Made by a program: the position numbers and the translations under genes | NCBI RefSeq assembly: GCF_036867135.1 | Contig: NZ_JBAJIJ010000001.1 | Coordinates: 744,001 to 808,000, forward strand | DNA from: Aeromicrobium sp. Sec7.5 | GTDB lineage: Bacteria; Actinomycetota; Actinomycetes; Propionibacteriales; Nocardioidaceae | Direction: 5' to 3' | Length of the DNA: 64,000 nt | Shown here: positions 22,979 through 62,875 of the stretch, piece after piece | How positions within the stretch are numbered: the first letter of the stretch is position 1 | Layout: each line of letters begins with the position of its first letter | Notes under the pieces: model-generated | What the model was told of the DNA's origin: nothing | What the model saw: only the letters and a program-made list of their open reading frames with translations | The model's database searches: none

Positions 22979-24658
<1,680 letters not shown>

Positions 24659-24661
<3 letters not shown>

Positions 24662-24733
24662 CCCCCGCCCCAGATTTGCGCCGAGTTGTGCAGTTCTGCG
24701 ATCGCGGAATCTCACAACTCGGCGCATTTCTTG
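24659..24733 (+). repeat. Palindrome A, left copy
   Basis: The outer arms TGCGCCGAGTTGTG (24677-24690) and CACAACTCGGCGCA (24713-24726) pair perfectly over 14 bp. An inner palindrome TTCTGCGATCGCGGAA (24694-24709) sits in the loop. It begins within the ettA stop codon and ends 2 bp before the nuclease-fold gene's stop, so it may also serve as a terminator for both. Confidence 0.85.
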
Positions 24734-25683: not shown

Positions 25684-25750
25684 TGCGCCGAGTTGTGCGT
25701 TCCGCGCCGGGAAGAATTGCGCAACTCGGCGCAAATCTGGGGCGGGGTCA
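25684..25750 (-). repeat. Palindrome A, right copy (inverted)
   Basis: Outer arms 25684-25698 and 25719-25733 pair over 14 of 15 bp, with an inner TTCC...GGAA stem in the loop. Read on the minus strand, 23 bp at the outer edge (through GAGTTG) are identical to the left copy. It ends in the marR stop codon at 25748-25750. Confidence 0.85.
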
Positions 25751-26233
25751 GGGGGCGGGGCAGGAGTTGTTGTCGTCGAGCTGGTCGACGACGCGCTGCA
25801 TGACACGGCCGAGGACGTCGAGCTCCTCCGGGGAGGCGTGCTCGACGAGGTGGGCGTGGACGCCCCGCACGTGCGTGTGCGCCGCCTGCTCGAGCACCGA
25901 GAACCCGTGGTCGGTCAGCACCGCGGACACGCCGCGTCCGTCGCCGACGGCCTGGGTGCGCTGCACGATGCCCTTGCGCTCGAGGCGGGAGATCGTGTGG
26001 GTCACACGGCTGCGGGAGTGCGAGACCTGCGCCGCGAGCGTGGCCATGCGGATGGACCGGTCGGGTGACTCCGACAGGCGGACGAGGATCTCGTACTCGG
26101 GCATCGAGAGGTCGTGCGCGGTACGCAGGTCACGGTCGAGACGGTCCATGAGCAGCGTCGTGGCGCCCAGGTACGACCGCCACACGTGCTGCTGGGGCTC
26201 GGTGAGCCACGGCGTCTCGGTGGTCGTGTCCAT
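25748..26233 (-). CDS. MarR-family transcriptional regulator
   Basis: 161 residues. The winged helix contains MATLAAQVSHSRSRVTHTISRLERKG, followed by the wing VGDGRGVSAVLT. The helices on either side make the dimer interface. It is divergent from the YceI gene with two TTGA-N4-TCAA palindromes in the gap, so it probably represses yceI and itself. ATG 26233 is chosen because TAGGAT (26241-26246) lies 7 bp upstream; ATG 26242 would overlap the -10 box. Its ligand is unknown. Confidence 0.88.
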   Translation of the reverse strand: MDTTTETPWLTEPQQHVWRSYLGATTLLMDRLDRDLRTAHDLSMPEYEILVRLSESPDRSIRMATLAAQVSHSRSRVTHTISRLERKGIVQRTQAVGDGRGVSAVLTDHGFSVLEQAAHTHVRGVHAHLVEHASPEELDVLGRVMQRVVDQLDDNNSCPAP

Positions 26234-40167: not shown

Positions 40168-40177
40168 CGGTGTCGCC

Positions 40178-40597
40178 GTGACCGCGCCTAGGCCGATGGT
40201 GCTGGGGGTGGGGGTCGACCTCGTCCACGTGCCCTCGTTCGCCGCCCAGCTGGCGGTGCCGGGGACGCGGTTCGCGGAGGCCTTCACGCCGGGGGAGCGG
40301 GCGGACGCGGCCGATCGGGCCGATCCGTCGGCCTCCCTCGCGGCCCGCTGGGCGGCGAAGGAGGCAGTCGTCAAGGCGTGGTCGGCCGCCCTGTTCGGTT
40401 CACCCCCGGTGCTGCCCGAGGCGGTGCACCGCCGGATCGAGGTCGTGACCGACGCGTGGAACCGGCCGGCCGTGCGCCTCCTCGGCGAGGTCGCGACCGC
40501 CGCCGCCTCCTCCCTCGGCCCCGATCTGACCTGGCACCTCAGCCTCTCCCACGACGCCGACCTCGCGACCGCCTACGTCACCCTCACCCGCCCCTGA
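40178..40597 (+). CDS. acpS: Holo-ACP synthase AcpS
   Basis: 139 residues. LGVGVDLVHV carries the Mg-binding Asp, and ARWAAKEAVVKAW the catalytic Glu and Lys; LSLSHDADLATAYV closes the fold. It attaches phosphopantetheine to the acyl carrier domain of Fas. It starts 10 bp after fas (GTG 40178; ATG 40196 is an alternative) and must be co-transcribed with it, as Rv2523c is with Rv2524c. Its stop is followed at 5 bp by the left palindrome of cassette B. Confidence 0.92.
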   Translation: MTAPRPMVLGVGVDLVHVPSFAAQLAVPGTRFAEAFTPGERADAADRADPSASLAARWAAKEAVVKAWSAALFGSPPVLPEAVHRRIEVVTDAWNRPAVRLLGEVATAAASSLGPDLTWHLSLSHDADLATAYVTLTRP

Positions 40598-40602
40598 CCC
40601 CC

Positions 40603-40680
40603 GGTCGAATTACGGAGTGGACCAGGCAACTGGTCGCCGGACACGGGAAATTTGCCGTGCTCGGCGACCAACTGCCGTGT
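40603..40680 (+). repeat. Palindrome B, left copy
   Basis: 78 bp. The outer arms GGCAACTGGTCGCCG and CGGCGACCAACTGCC pair at 13 of 15 positions. The inner arms CACGG and CCGTG enclose GGAAATTTG, so the whole folds as a nested hairpin. It lies between the acpS stop and the stop of the cassette gene. Confidence 0.85.
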
Positions 40681-40684
40681 TGGG

Positions 40685-41665
40685 TCAGGCGCCGAGGTCA
40701 ATGATCCGTCGCCAGATCCTCCGCGACCGGCCGAGGTCGGCCTTGATGCGCGCGGCCGTCGTGGCGGATCGACGTGGCTCCAGGTCTGACCACGTCCACC
40801 GACTGACGCCGTGGTCCAGTCCGCGGATCGCGTCCTCCCGCCGCTTCTCGTCGACGAGCACGCGGCCGACGTCGGTGTCGTACGGATTGAGACGGCCGTA
40901 CTTCACGAGCCCGTCGAACTCGCCGACGTGGTGGAAGAGCTCCCACCAGAAGTCTGACCGCCCGACGAGGCGACCGGTGCTGTCGCGGATCTCGTGCTGA
41001 GGTTCGGGCAGGGGGATCGCGTGGGTCGAGAAGAAGCACATCGACCGCACCTCACCGACCGACTCCATGCGAGCATCTGCGAGGCCTGCAGCCCGATGCG
41101 CGGTGACCGCCCCGGCCCAGGTCCGGACACTCTTGAGCATGTCCTCGAGCTGACCAGCGCTGACACCGAGGTCGCGCATCGCCGACGTGATGGCCACGGC
41201 GCCGGCCTCGAGTGATGCGCCGAGTGCTGTCTCGACGGCTGCTCGGACCGGCGGGACCACGAGGACCCCGCCGATCTCGACGAGCGATGCCGAGTCGATG
41301 GCGCCGCAGTGGTAGCGCACGCCGGCGTCGACCCGATCCGTGCGGCCGTCGAGGCGCCCCACCTGCACCTCGCTCAGGTCGACGTCCCAGACCTCGATGC
41401 CGAGCAGGGCCGCCGCGGAGTAGTGGGACGCGTAGACGTGGCGACCGAGCTTGCCCAGCACGGCCCGGGTCAGCACCCGATGGCGCTCCACGGGGGTGGA
41501 GTGCTGCCAGGTGGGCCCGTGCGCATAGGTGCCGAACCGGATGCGGACGATGTCCCCGTCGCGGAGCGCACGACGGATCGCGCCGTCGGTCCACCCGAGG
41601 TCGAGGAGCTCATGGCGCTCCAGCGCACCGCCGTGGGCGTGGAACAGTGGTCCGAGCTCGTTCAT
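40685..41665 (-). CDS. Winged-helix + PD-(D/E)XK-like protein of cassette B
   Basis: 326 residues. N-terminal winged helix (LERHELLDLGWTDGAIRRAL, then IRFGTYAHG) of the AbiEi type. A middle region contains SHYSAAALLGIEVWDVDLS, and a C-terminal nuclease-like fold RSDFWWELFHHVGEFDGLVK (Asp about 237, Glu and Asp about 248-250), followed by LVDEKRREDAIRG. The D...ExDG pattern parallels the cassette A protein, but the rest is dissimilar. No partner toxin is adjacent. ATG 41665 is preceded by CAGTCT 6 bp away. Function unknown. Confidence 0.72.
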   Translation of the reverse strand: MNELGPLFHAHGGALERHELLDLGWTDGAIRRALRDGDIVRIRFGTYAHGPTWQHSTPVERHRVLTRAVLGKLGRHVYASHYSAAALLGIEVWDVDLSEVQVGRLDGRTDRVDAGVRYHCGAIDSASLVEIGGVLVVPPVRAAVETALGASLEAGAVAITSAMRDLGVSAGQLEDMLKSVRTWAGAVTAHRAAGLADARMESVGEVRSMCFFSTHAIPLPEPQHEIRDSTGRLVGRSDFWWELFHHVGEFDGLVKYGRLNPYDTDVGRVLVDEKRREDAIRGLDHGVSRWTWSDLEPRRSATTAARIKADLGRSRRIWRRIIDLGA

Positions 41666-41753
41666 GACTCCAGACTGCGGCCGATCTGGCGGTCCCCGGT
41701 TGCTGAGCCTGGTTCCTGTGGATTCATCCGGTCGGTGGATGAGCCGCAGCACC

Positions 41754-41831
41754 ACACGGGAGTTCGTCGCCGAACACGGCAAATTTCCCGTGTTCGGGAA
41801 CCATCTGCCTGGTTCACTCCGTAATTCGACC
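41754..41831 (-). repeat. Palindrome B, right copy (inverted)
   Basis: The reverse complement matches the left copy at 69 of 78 positions. Mismatches cluster in the outer arms; the central ACACGGGAAATTTGCCGTG is identical in all three copies. It lies 9 bp beyond the tetR stop. Confidence 0.85.
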
Positions 41832-41840
41832 TGGGGGGGG

Positions 41841-42455
41841 TTAGGCCTCGGCGGCGAGGAGGTAGGCGGCGAGGAGGCGCTTGAGCTCGATGACGGCCTC
41901 GGCGTGGGCCTGGCCGTCGCGGATGGAGAAGTTGAGCATCGAGTACGTGACGTGCACGAGGACCTCGGCGACGATGCGGCGGCGCTCGCGGGGGGTGCCG
42001 GGGGTCAGCGGCGCGAGCGCGTGGGCGACGGAGGCGGCGAGGTCACGCTCGGTGACGGCCGCGGTCGCCCGGGTGGCCGGCGTGGCCTGCACCGCGTGCC
42101 AGACCGCCCGGCGGGACGGGTCGGCGACCCACAGTGCCGCGATGTGATCGATCAGGCGGTCGAGGAAGCGCAGCCAGTCGAGCGACGGGATCTGGCCCGC
42201 GAACGCCTCGAGCTCGGACTTGACCGCCACGGCGTCCTGGCGATCGAGCTCGCACACGATGACGTACTTGTTCGCGAAGAACTGGTAGAGCGTGCCGATG
42301 GGCAGCTCGGCGCGCTGCGCGACCTCCTCGCAGGTGAACGACTCGAAGCCGACCTCCAGCAGGAGCTCGCGCGAGACCGCCAGGAGAAGATCGAACTTCT
42401 TCTGGCTGCGCTCCTGCGTCGGGCGCTTGCGTGGCTCGAGGATCTCGACGGTCAC
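41841..42455 (-). CDS. TetR-family regulator
   Basis: 204 residues. An Arg/Lys-rich start (RKRPTQERSQKKFDLLL) leads into the helix-turn-helix CEEVAQRAELPIGTLYQFF. It ends an operon with a phosphotransferase and a FabG-like SDR, with 3 bp to the gene ahead. TAGGGT (42463-42468) lies 7 bp before GTG 42455, giving it a private leaderless promoter as well. It is a second candidate, besides FasR, for the twin operators at fas and the carboxylase, or for the TAAGC-N4-GCTTA site upstream of its own operon. Confidence 0.85.
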   Translation of the reverse strand: MTVEILEPRKRPTQERSQKKFDLLLAVSRELLLEVGFESFTCEEVAQRAELPIGTLYQFFANKYVIVCELDRQDAVAVKSELEAFAGQIPSLDWLRFLDRLIDHIAALWVADPSRRAVWHAVQATPATRATAAVTERDLAASVAHALAPLTPGTPRERRRIVAEVLVHVTYSMLNFSIRDGQAHAEAVIELKRLLAAYLLAAEA

Positions 42456-62659: not shown

Positions 62660-62737
62660 CGGCGAATTGCGGAGTGGACACGGCAGATGGTCGCTGAACA
62701 CGGGAAATTTGCCGTGCCCAGGGACCAGTTGCCTTGC
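62660..62737 (+). repeat. Palindrome B, solitary copy
   Basis: Matches the left repeat of cassette B at 62 of 78 positions, same orientation, with the core ACACGGGAAATTTGCCGTG unchanged. Arms GGCAGATGGTC and GACCAGTTGCC still largely pair. There is no cassette gene or inverted partner nearby. It occupies the 364-bp gap between tig and the next gene, which otherwise holds only the tig terminator and a promoter. Confidence 0.8.
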
Positions 62738-62875
62738 TTGGCGGTCGGATGGCCACCCCCGAGGCCTGCCGCCCTGGTCCGCGGCCGCTTGTCAGTTGCA
62801 TCGCCCACCCCCGTGACCAACGACGCTCCCCGGTGGTCTTGGCAGCACGTGGTGCGACTTGTCACACTGAGTGAC

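Follow-up and report, generated by a model that had tools for sequence, protein, structure and literature searches.

A palindrome-flanked AbiEi–nuclease cassette of Aeromicrobium as a candidate two-part selfish element

Described systems and the cassette B locus

Palindromes of the REP type are attributed to HUH transposases (RAYTs). Here we analyze cassette B, a single gene between two long inverted arms in a 64,000-nucleotide stretch of the Aeromicrobium sp. Sec7.5 genome (contig NZ_JBAJIJ010000001.1, positions 744,001 to 808,000; the window), which resembles REPIN/RAYT systems but encodes another kind of protein. The same window holds a related cassette, cassette A. In REPIN/RAYT systems (REPtrons), according to two reports (PMC8266576, PMC3116915), a resident, usually single-copy gene lies near palindromes, the same palindromes are dispersed without the gene, and the gene behaves as a housekeeping gene. 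Dispersed gene-less palindromes were also found in relatives of the window's genome, with at least 33 copies in three Aeromicrobium genomes (G010, G020 and G023, hereafter the trio) and at least 42 in Nocardioides TF02-7. However, RAYTs are HUH/Y1 single-strand transposases, whereas the cassette protein is predicted to combine AbiEi and Vsr/I-Bth0305I folds. The GTAG tag was present on neither strand of the cassette B arms or of a solo arm copy at 62663 (the right arm has one internal CGTC). Because of its different folds and the lack of GTAG in its arms, cassette B is not a member of the REPIN/RAYT group, although this group and the TIRtrons come closest to its presumed way of working.

Several other systems are similar in part. 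TIRtrons also have a single gene (a tyrosine transposase) flanked by terminal inverted repeats, and some of these repeats make up families (PMC3733652), but their enzyme family differs from that of the cassette protein. With regard to a DDE insertion sequence accompanied by miniature inverted-repeat transposable elements, no DDE transposase was found, and modeling assigns the catalytic region to the Vsr/I-Bth0305I fold. The cassette B protein probably has this nuclease fold in common with the EDxHD homing endonuclease I-Bth0305I and the repair endonuclease Vsr; in the cassette, however, the domain is fused to an AbiEi-like region, lies outside introns and is flanked by palindromes with dispersed copies. 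The AbiEi-like DNA-binding region is common to the AbiEi antitoxin (type IV toxin-antitoxin systems) and Rv2827c, but the cassette has no adjacent AbiEii nucleotidyltransferase toxin gene and carries an extra nuclease domain. Rpn/YhgA-like proteins are PD-(D/E)XK nucleases for which a role in gene acquisition that needs no classical transposase has been proposed (PMC5350276). However, Pfam scans of the cassette B protein and 30 relatives gave no match to transposase_31 (PF04754), nor to Y1 (HUH) or DDE transposases. No published description of such cassettes was found in the open-access PubMed Central literature, a search that leaves most subscription papers and preprints outside its coverage.

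We consider it rather likely that cassette B is a resident two-part selfish element, similar to REPIN/RAYT but built on another nuclease. A broader proposal, about which we are evenly divided, is that it represents a new class of selfish elements widespread in Actinobacteria, in which an AbiEi-Vsr-type nuclease recognizes and spreads long palindromes, REP-like but independent of HUH transposases, with a nuclease-palindrome pair particular to each lineage. If true, a second, unrelated enzyme family would have the same genomic signature, and systems of a resident nuclease and dispersed palindromes would have arisen more than once. It would also hint at what a large group of DUF559/AbiEi-type proteins does, offer natural pairs of a nuclease and a long palindromic target, and perhaps account for odd hairpins between convergent actinobacterial genes.

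Arms and protein of cassette B and its relatives

The arms of cassette B are 83 nt each, 88% complementary and separated by 1073 nt (Table 1). Over the cassette flanks (287 and 285 nt) the inverted match score was 61, while the scores of 946 random placements of the same size within the window did not exceed 34 and had their 99th percentile at 17.8; this control rules out a chance origin of the repeats. Within each arm there is a further, imperfect palindrome, and both arms folded far better than shuffled sequences (z -5.3 for 40603-40684 and -4.0 for 41754-41831). The initial annotation, made from the window's sequence, had described 78-bp terminal repeats; their identity (69 of 78 positions) was confirmed, and they are contained within the 83-nt arms. 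Its description of the locus was also accurate: the single minus-strand gene has its stop 4 nt from the left arm and its start 88 nt from the right one (4 and about 90 bp had been given), acpS and tetR converge on the cassette, and the domain plan of a winged helix followed by D...ExDG corresponds to an AbiEi-type winged helix followed by D238 and E249-F-D251-G.

The cassette B protein has an AbiEi-like DNA-binding region (approximately residues 1-197) and a Vsr/I-Bth0305I-type PD-(D/E)XK nuclease domain (approximately 200-317), and its predicted model matches the AbiEi (1-197) and I-Bth0305I/Vsr (200-317) folds along the whole length. The nuclease domain carries an acidic/basic motif conserved in the cassette family: among the best 80 of 575 relatives, E205, E273 and K274 were present in all 80 and D238 in 79. 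The invariance of GEFDG..KY in these relatives is by construction, because these residues belonged to the search pattern used to collect the named relatives; E205, D238, E273 and K274 did not. The cassette gene is under purifying selection, with ratios of nonsynonymous to synonymous divergence (dN/dS) of 0.11-0.29. NCBIfam and PHROGs searches gave no matches. A search of PDB by sequence gave none with query A1 and two weak matches with query A2 (E 0.58 and 0.75), the second being an endonuclease-like protein; in Rfam, two weak microRNA matches were both sub-threshold. The proteins of cassettes A and B are full-length homologs and, by structure prediction, have a common nuclease fold, so the objection that they might be unrelated fails.

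We searched 49 Aeromicrobium genomes, one per species (G000 is the window's own genome). B-protein matches at E<=0.001 occurred in 37 of them, although some were weak and possibly A-type. All 30 B loci examined (those returned as loci by this search, a subset of its matches) had flanking inverted arms by reading, with scores of 31-82. Against a control of 198 mismatched-locus pairs (median 17; 95th percentile 35; maximum 226, from same-site pairs), 28 exceeded the 95th percentile, the two below it being L017 (34) and L032 (31). The arms commonly follow a shared plan in differing letters, a small outer palindrome (for example CGGTTTACCA..TGGTAAACCG) preceding an inner hairpin, and 27 of the 30 had a folding z below -2 against mononucleotide shuffles. 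Arm identity averaged 82% within a locus (minimum 75%) and 26% between loci. Arm similarity followed protein similarity (Spearman 0.42; none of 1000 Mantel permutations was as high). The earlier proposal of a family of cassettes with matched protein and palindrome is supported. The correlation of arms and proteins is consistent with matched specificity but does not prove it, because physical linkage alone predicts some correlation. From these sequence comparisons we infer that each protein may bind its own palindromes specifically.

A-protein matches were found in 46 of the 49 genomes, with up to 10 per genome. Forty-four of 50 A-type loci had arms above the 95th percentile of their control, which was used because the 99th percentile (89; 0/50 above) was spoilt by many same-site loci. 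Among the best 80 of the 575 relatives at named actinobacterial loci, 57 had arms above the 99th and 67 above the 95th percentile of the mismatched control (maximum 134). Seventeen of the 80 are Aeromicrobium, mostly overlapping the 30 genus loci; outside this genus, by our own split of the set, 40 of 63 exceeded the 99th and 50 the 95th percentile. The genera represented were Nocardioides, Marmoricola, Blastococcus, Geodermatophilus, Pseudonocardia, Jiangella, Nocardia, Rhodococcus and others, and relatives with their own repeats appear to be widespread in soil actinobacteria.

Table 1. Features of cassettes A and B and their surroundings (window coordinates)
Feature	Position	Strand	Remarks
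Cassette B left terminal inverted arm	40598..40680	+	outer half-palindrome (CGAATTACGGAGTG..), then inner imperfect hairpin 40625-40676 (26+26 nt, 81%)
Cassette B gene, 326 aa	40685..41665	-	includes stop codon 40685-40687; ATG start
Cassette B right terminal inverted arm	41754..41836	-	inner imperfect hairpin 41758-41809 (26+26 nt, 77%)
Solo gene-less copy of cassette B arm	62663..62741	+	82% identical; folds with z -3.3; absent from the initial annotation
acpS (name by eye)	40175..40597	+	convergent left neighbor; part used as query
tetR-family gene (name by eye)	41841..42455	-	convergent right neighbor; stop from 41841
Cassette A left arm	24646..24697	+	
Cassette A gene, 288 aa	24735..25601	-	AbiEi-like region and DUF559/MTES_1575-type nuclease
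Cassette A right arm	25713..25764	-	

Gene-less copies and their placement

The new element of this analysis is that gene-less copies of the arms are dispersed in genomes. A second palindrome family, identified in the 138-bp acpS-tetR gap of G023, where it stands without a gene, matched only the trio among the 49 genomes. At least 33 solo copies of 79-125 bp were analyzed (13 in G023, 14 in G020 and 6 in G010), and all three genomes have a single autonomous cassette with these arms, located at an orthologous position. For this one family searched genus-wide, all three genomes with solo copies therefore also carry a cassette with those arms. Nocardioides TF02-7 had at least 42 solo places in addition to two cassette arms, and four further Nocardioides genomes had 2-16 related matches each, both strands counted. 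The solo copy numbers are lower bounds, with 18 (Aeromicrobium search) and 40 (Nocardioides search) candidates scored per genome. Some of the TF02-7 copies stand in tandem arrays, in which the 95-bp palindrome occurs four and three times with a spacing of approximately 143 bp. Several gene-less copies of the trio directly abut a stop codon (TGA, then CGGTTTACC), as if the end of the unit could supply the stop.

In the window itself, the solo arm copy lies downstream of a gene labeled by eye as trigger-factor-like. The cassette B palindrome gave no match in the other 48 Aeromicrobium genomes. Its outer palindrome, TTACGGAGTNNACTCCGTAA, was found with up to 3 mismatches at one place in G000, six in G031 and two in G032, and at none in four other genomes; the reversed pattern, used as a control, gave no places. 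All six of these places outside the acpS-tetR gap consist of a hairpin adjoining the outer palindrome. The gap corresponding to 62663 contains a solo hairpin with the outer palindrome in reversed order in G031 and an unrelated hairpin in G032, and no such palindromic unit in G042 or G018. The place in G000 (C3:106810) has a hairpin and a perfect outer palindrome of the G031 type, unlike the inner hairpin type of the window cassette.

It could be argued that the protein is a single-gene regulator, or a toxin-antitoxin-like or defense gene, for which the palindromes serve as immobile operators. The protein does have an AbiEi-like region, and AbiEi is reported to autoregulate through inverted repeats (PMC3985639). 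However, one arm lies beyond the stop codon, dozens of solo copies occur without any gene, and reading of the window's open reading frames (ORFs) revealed no AbiEii toxin partner between or beside the arms. We regard this explanation as highly improbable. A two-gene AbiE toxin-antitoxin system was rejected, as there is no toxin gene and only acpS and tetR (names by eye) adjoin the cassette.

The sites of the solo copies bear on whether the host benefits from the palindromes as bidirectional terminators or insulators where convergent genes end, with the nuclease gene as a passenger or regulator. Of 32 Aeromicrobium solo sites that could be classified (one more could not), 19 were convergent, 13 tandem and none divergent, compared with 3, 34 and 4 of 41 comparison gaps; these counts come from a crude gene caller (a heuristic based on GC content at third codon positions) and include orthologous sites, which are not independent. 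For 32 of the 33 copies, at least one end was no more than 20 nt from a called gene boundary, and in the empty allele of site d a GC-rich hairpin takes the place of the palindrome unit. All of this would fit a terminator or insulator role. On the other hand, a terminator pattern scan of the arms found no terminator-like site, and the arms lie on both sides of the gene, including upstream of its start. The palindromes are also specific to cassette families and polymorphic, the one searched genus-wide matching 3 of 49 genomes, and the 31 TF02-7 solo sites included, besides 7 convergent ones, 10 tandem, 3 divergent and 1 apparently inside an ORF (10 had no orientation call). The objection that the repeats are ordinary terminators, foreseen in the initial annotation, is weakened by the scan and by the family-specific, polymorphic sequences; plain terminators were rejected on the empty scan and this specificity, and we consider the wider host-function explanation unlikely.

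The copies also differ between species. Nine gaps were compared across the trio, namely the acpS-tetR gap and eight queried by their flanks (ten flanks were queried, but 23m gave no orthologous match and 20f was an already known shared site). In seven of the nine (c, d, 20c, jk, 23l, 20n and acpS) one or two species had the unit and it was missing or reduced in the others, with copies 20c and 20n in G020 alone. The remaining two, ef and 20l, had non-orthologous right flanks and therefore no presence/absence call.

Turnover at fixed sites and a possible mode of spread

Forty-three acpS loci were examined, 37 with an adjacent tetR and 6 without. Among the 37 acpS-tetR gaps, a B-type cassette occurs in 11 (one of these gaps is 5.4 kb long), a lone 27-bp palindrome in 1 and other contents of 0.7-2.4 kb in 12, and 7 are only 0-17 bp long. 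Six further gaps are 81-148 bp long, and those of G020, G023, G022 and G042 are visibly palindromic. The lone palindrome is in G032, whose TetR is 99.5% identical to that of the window: its 40-bp gap holds one 27-bp outer palindrome only.

The cassettes were more diverged than their surroundings. Element identity was 0.70-0.84 where the 1-kb flanks had 0.87-0.96, and synonymous divergence (dS) of the cassette gene was 0.77 (B, G000-G031), 0.60 and 1.08 (trio), and 0.58 and 1.04 (A), compared with 0.09-0.34 for acpS and tetR pairs. G032 and G018 differ from the window's genome at the cassette A site. In G032 (left flank 97% identical) the palindrome is another one and an insertion disrupts the gene, and in G018 a cassette A ortholog occupies the same gap in the opposite orientation. 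Because cassette divergence exceeds that of the flanks and these cassette A alleles are altered, the sequence data point to cassettes being replaced, or changing very fast, at fixed sites. The G018 inversion possibly arose by recombination between the inverted arms of cassette A. The insertion in G032 resembles an IS3-type element (label by eye), and the palindrome there is unlike that of G000.

Alternatively, the protein might be a free-standing homing endonuclease, cutting cassette-free or differently occupied alleles at one fixed site so that repair copies the cassette in, with the arms as target halves. However, gene-less palindromes at dozens of unrelated places are unexpected for plain homing. 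In addition, G031 keeps the outer palindrome at both cassette ends (0 and 1 mismatches), so insertion does not obviously destroy the homing target. We judge plain homing to be quite unlikely.

In a resident two-part element, a single protein would bind the long imperfect palindromes through its AbiEi-like winged-helix part, and its Vsr/I-Bth0305I-type nuclease domain would nick or cut the palindromes or the DNA beside them. Repair or template switching at the breaks could then insert copies of the palindromic units into gaps at gene ends, either alone or together with the gene, and might also allow one diverged cassette allele to be exchanged for another at a fixed site. AbiEi is reported to bind long inverted repeats (PMC3985639) and I-Bth0305I to dimerize on a target spanning nearly 60 bp (PMC3943268), which makes it plausible that an AbiEi-nuclease fusion binds imperfect palindromes of 50-80 bp. 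We infer that the protein binds or cuts these palindromes and drives their spread, probably by such a repair route.

Several observations weigh against this interpretation. Few solo copies were found in the window's genome, one of the full arm (62663) and one related outer-palindrome place (C3), and by eye no target-site duplication was seen at the filled/empty pairs, whose junctions are diverged. Among the best 80 relatives, 23 of the named loci were below the 99th-percentile control, and the four catalytic-type residues were kept in all 23 of these as well as in 56 of the 57 with clear arms; an intact nuclease thus does not need recognizable arms. Weak codon constraint, instead of replacement, could account for part of the high dS of the cassettes. 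On the 30-tip B tree, the acpS-site cassettes cluster (2 changes versus a shuffled mean of approximately 9, with none of 500 shuffles as low); since they form mostly one cluster, free hopping of the autonomous gene was dropped. The cassette protein matched none of 50,697 phage records and had 4 distant matches among 72,556 plasmid records, and phage or plasmid cargo was rejected on these counts.

The site stability of the gene would also suit another transposase (HUH/RAYT or DDE) that moves the palindromes in trans, with the AbiEi-nuclease gene as cargo between two copies. Some TF02-7 copy pairs also flank ordinary-looking genes: of four pairs approximately 0.6-1 kb apart, one encloses a DUF559-like ORF and the others enclose other ORFs (labels by eye). 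However, arms with their own sequence flank this gene family at every genus B locus examined and in many actinobacterial genera. Such flanking of one gene family by locus-specific arms is too regular for chance cargo, and we find this alternative improbable.

Cassette A-style palindromes (GAGATTTGCTCC..) were observed in the acpS-tetR gaps of G005, G045 and G017, which suggests that one hot spot serves different cassette families. In the window's genome, a further A-type cassette (C1:1791400-1793900) has an arm that resembles the gene-less sequence of the 148-bp acpS-tetR gap of G042.
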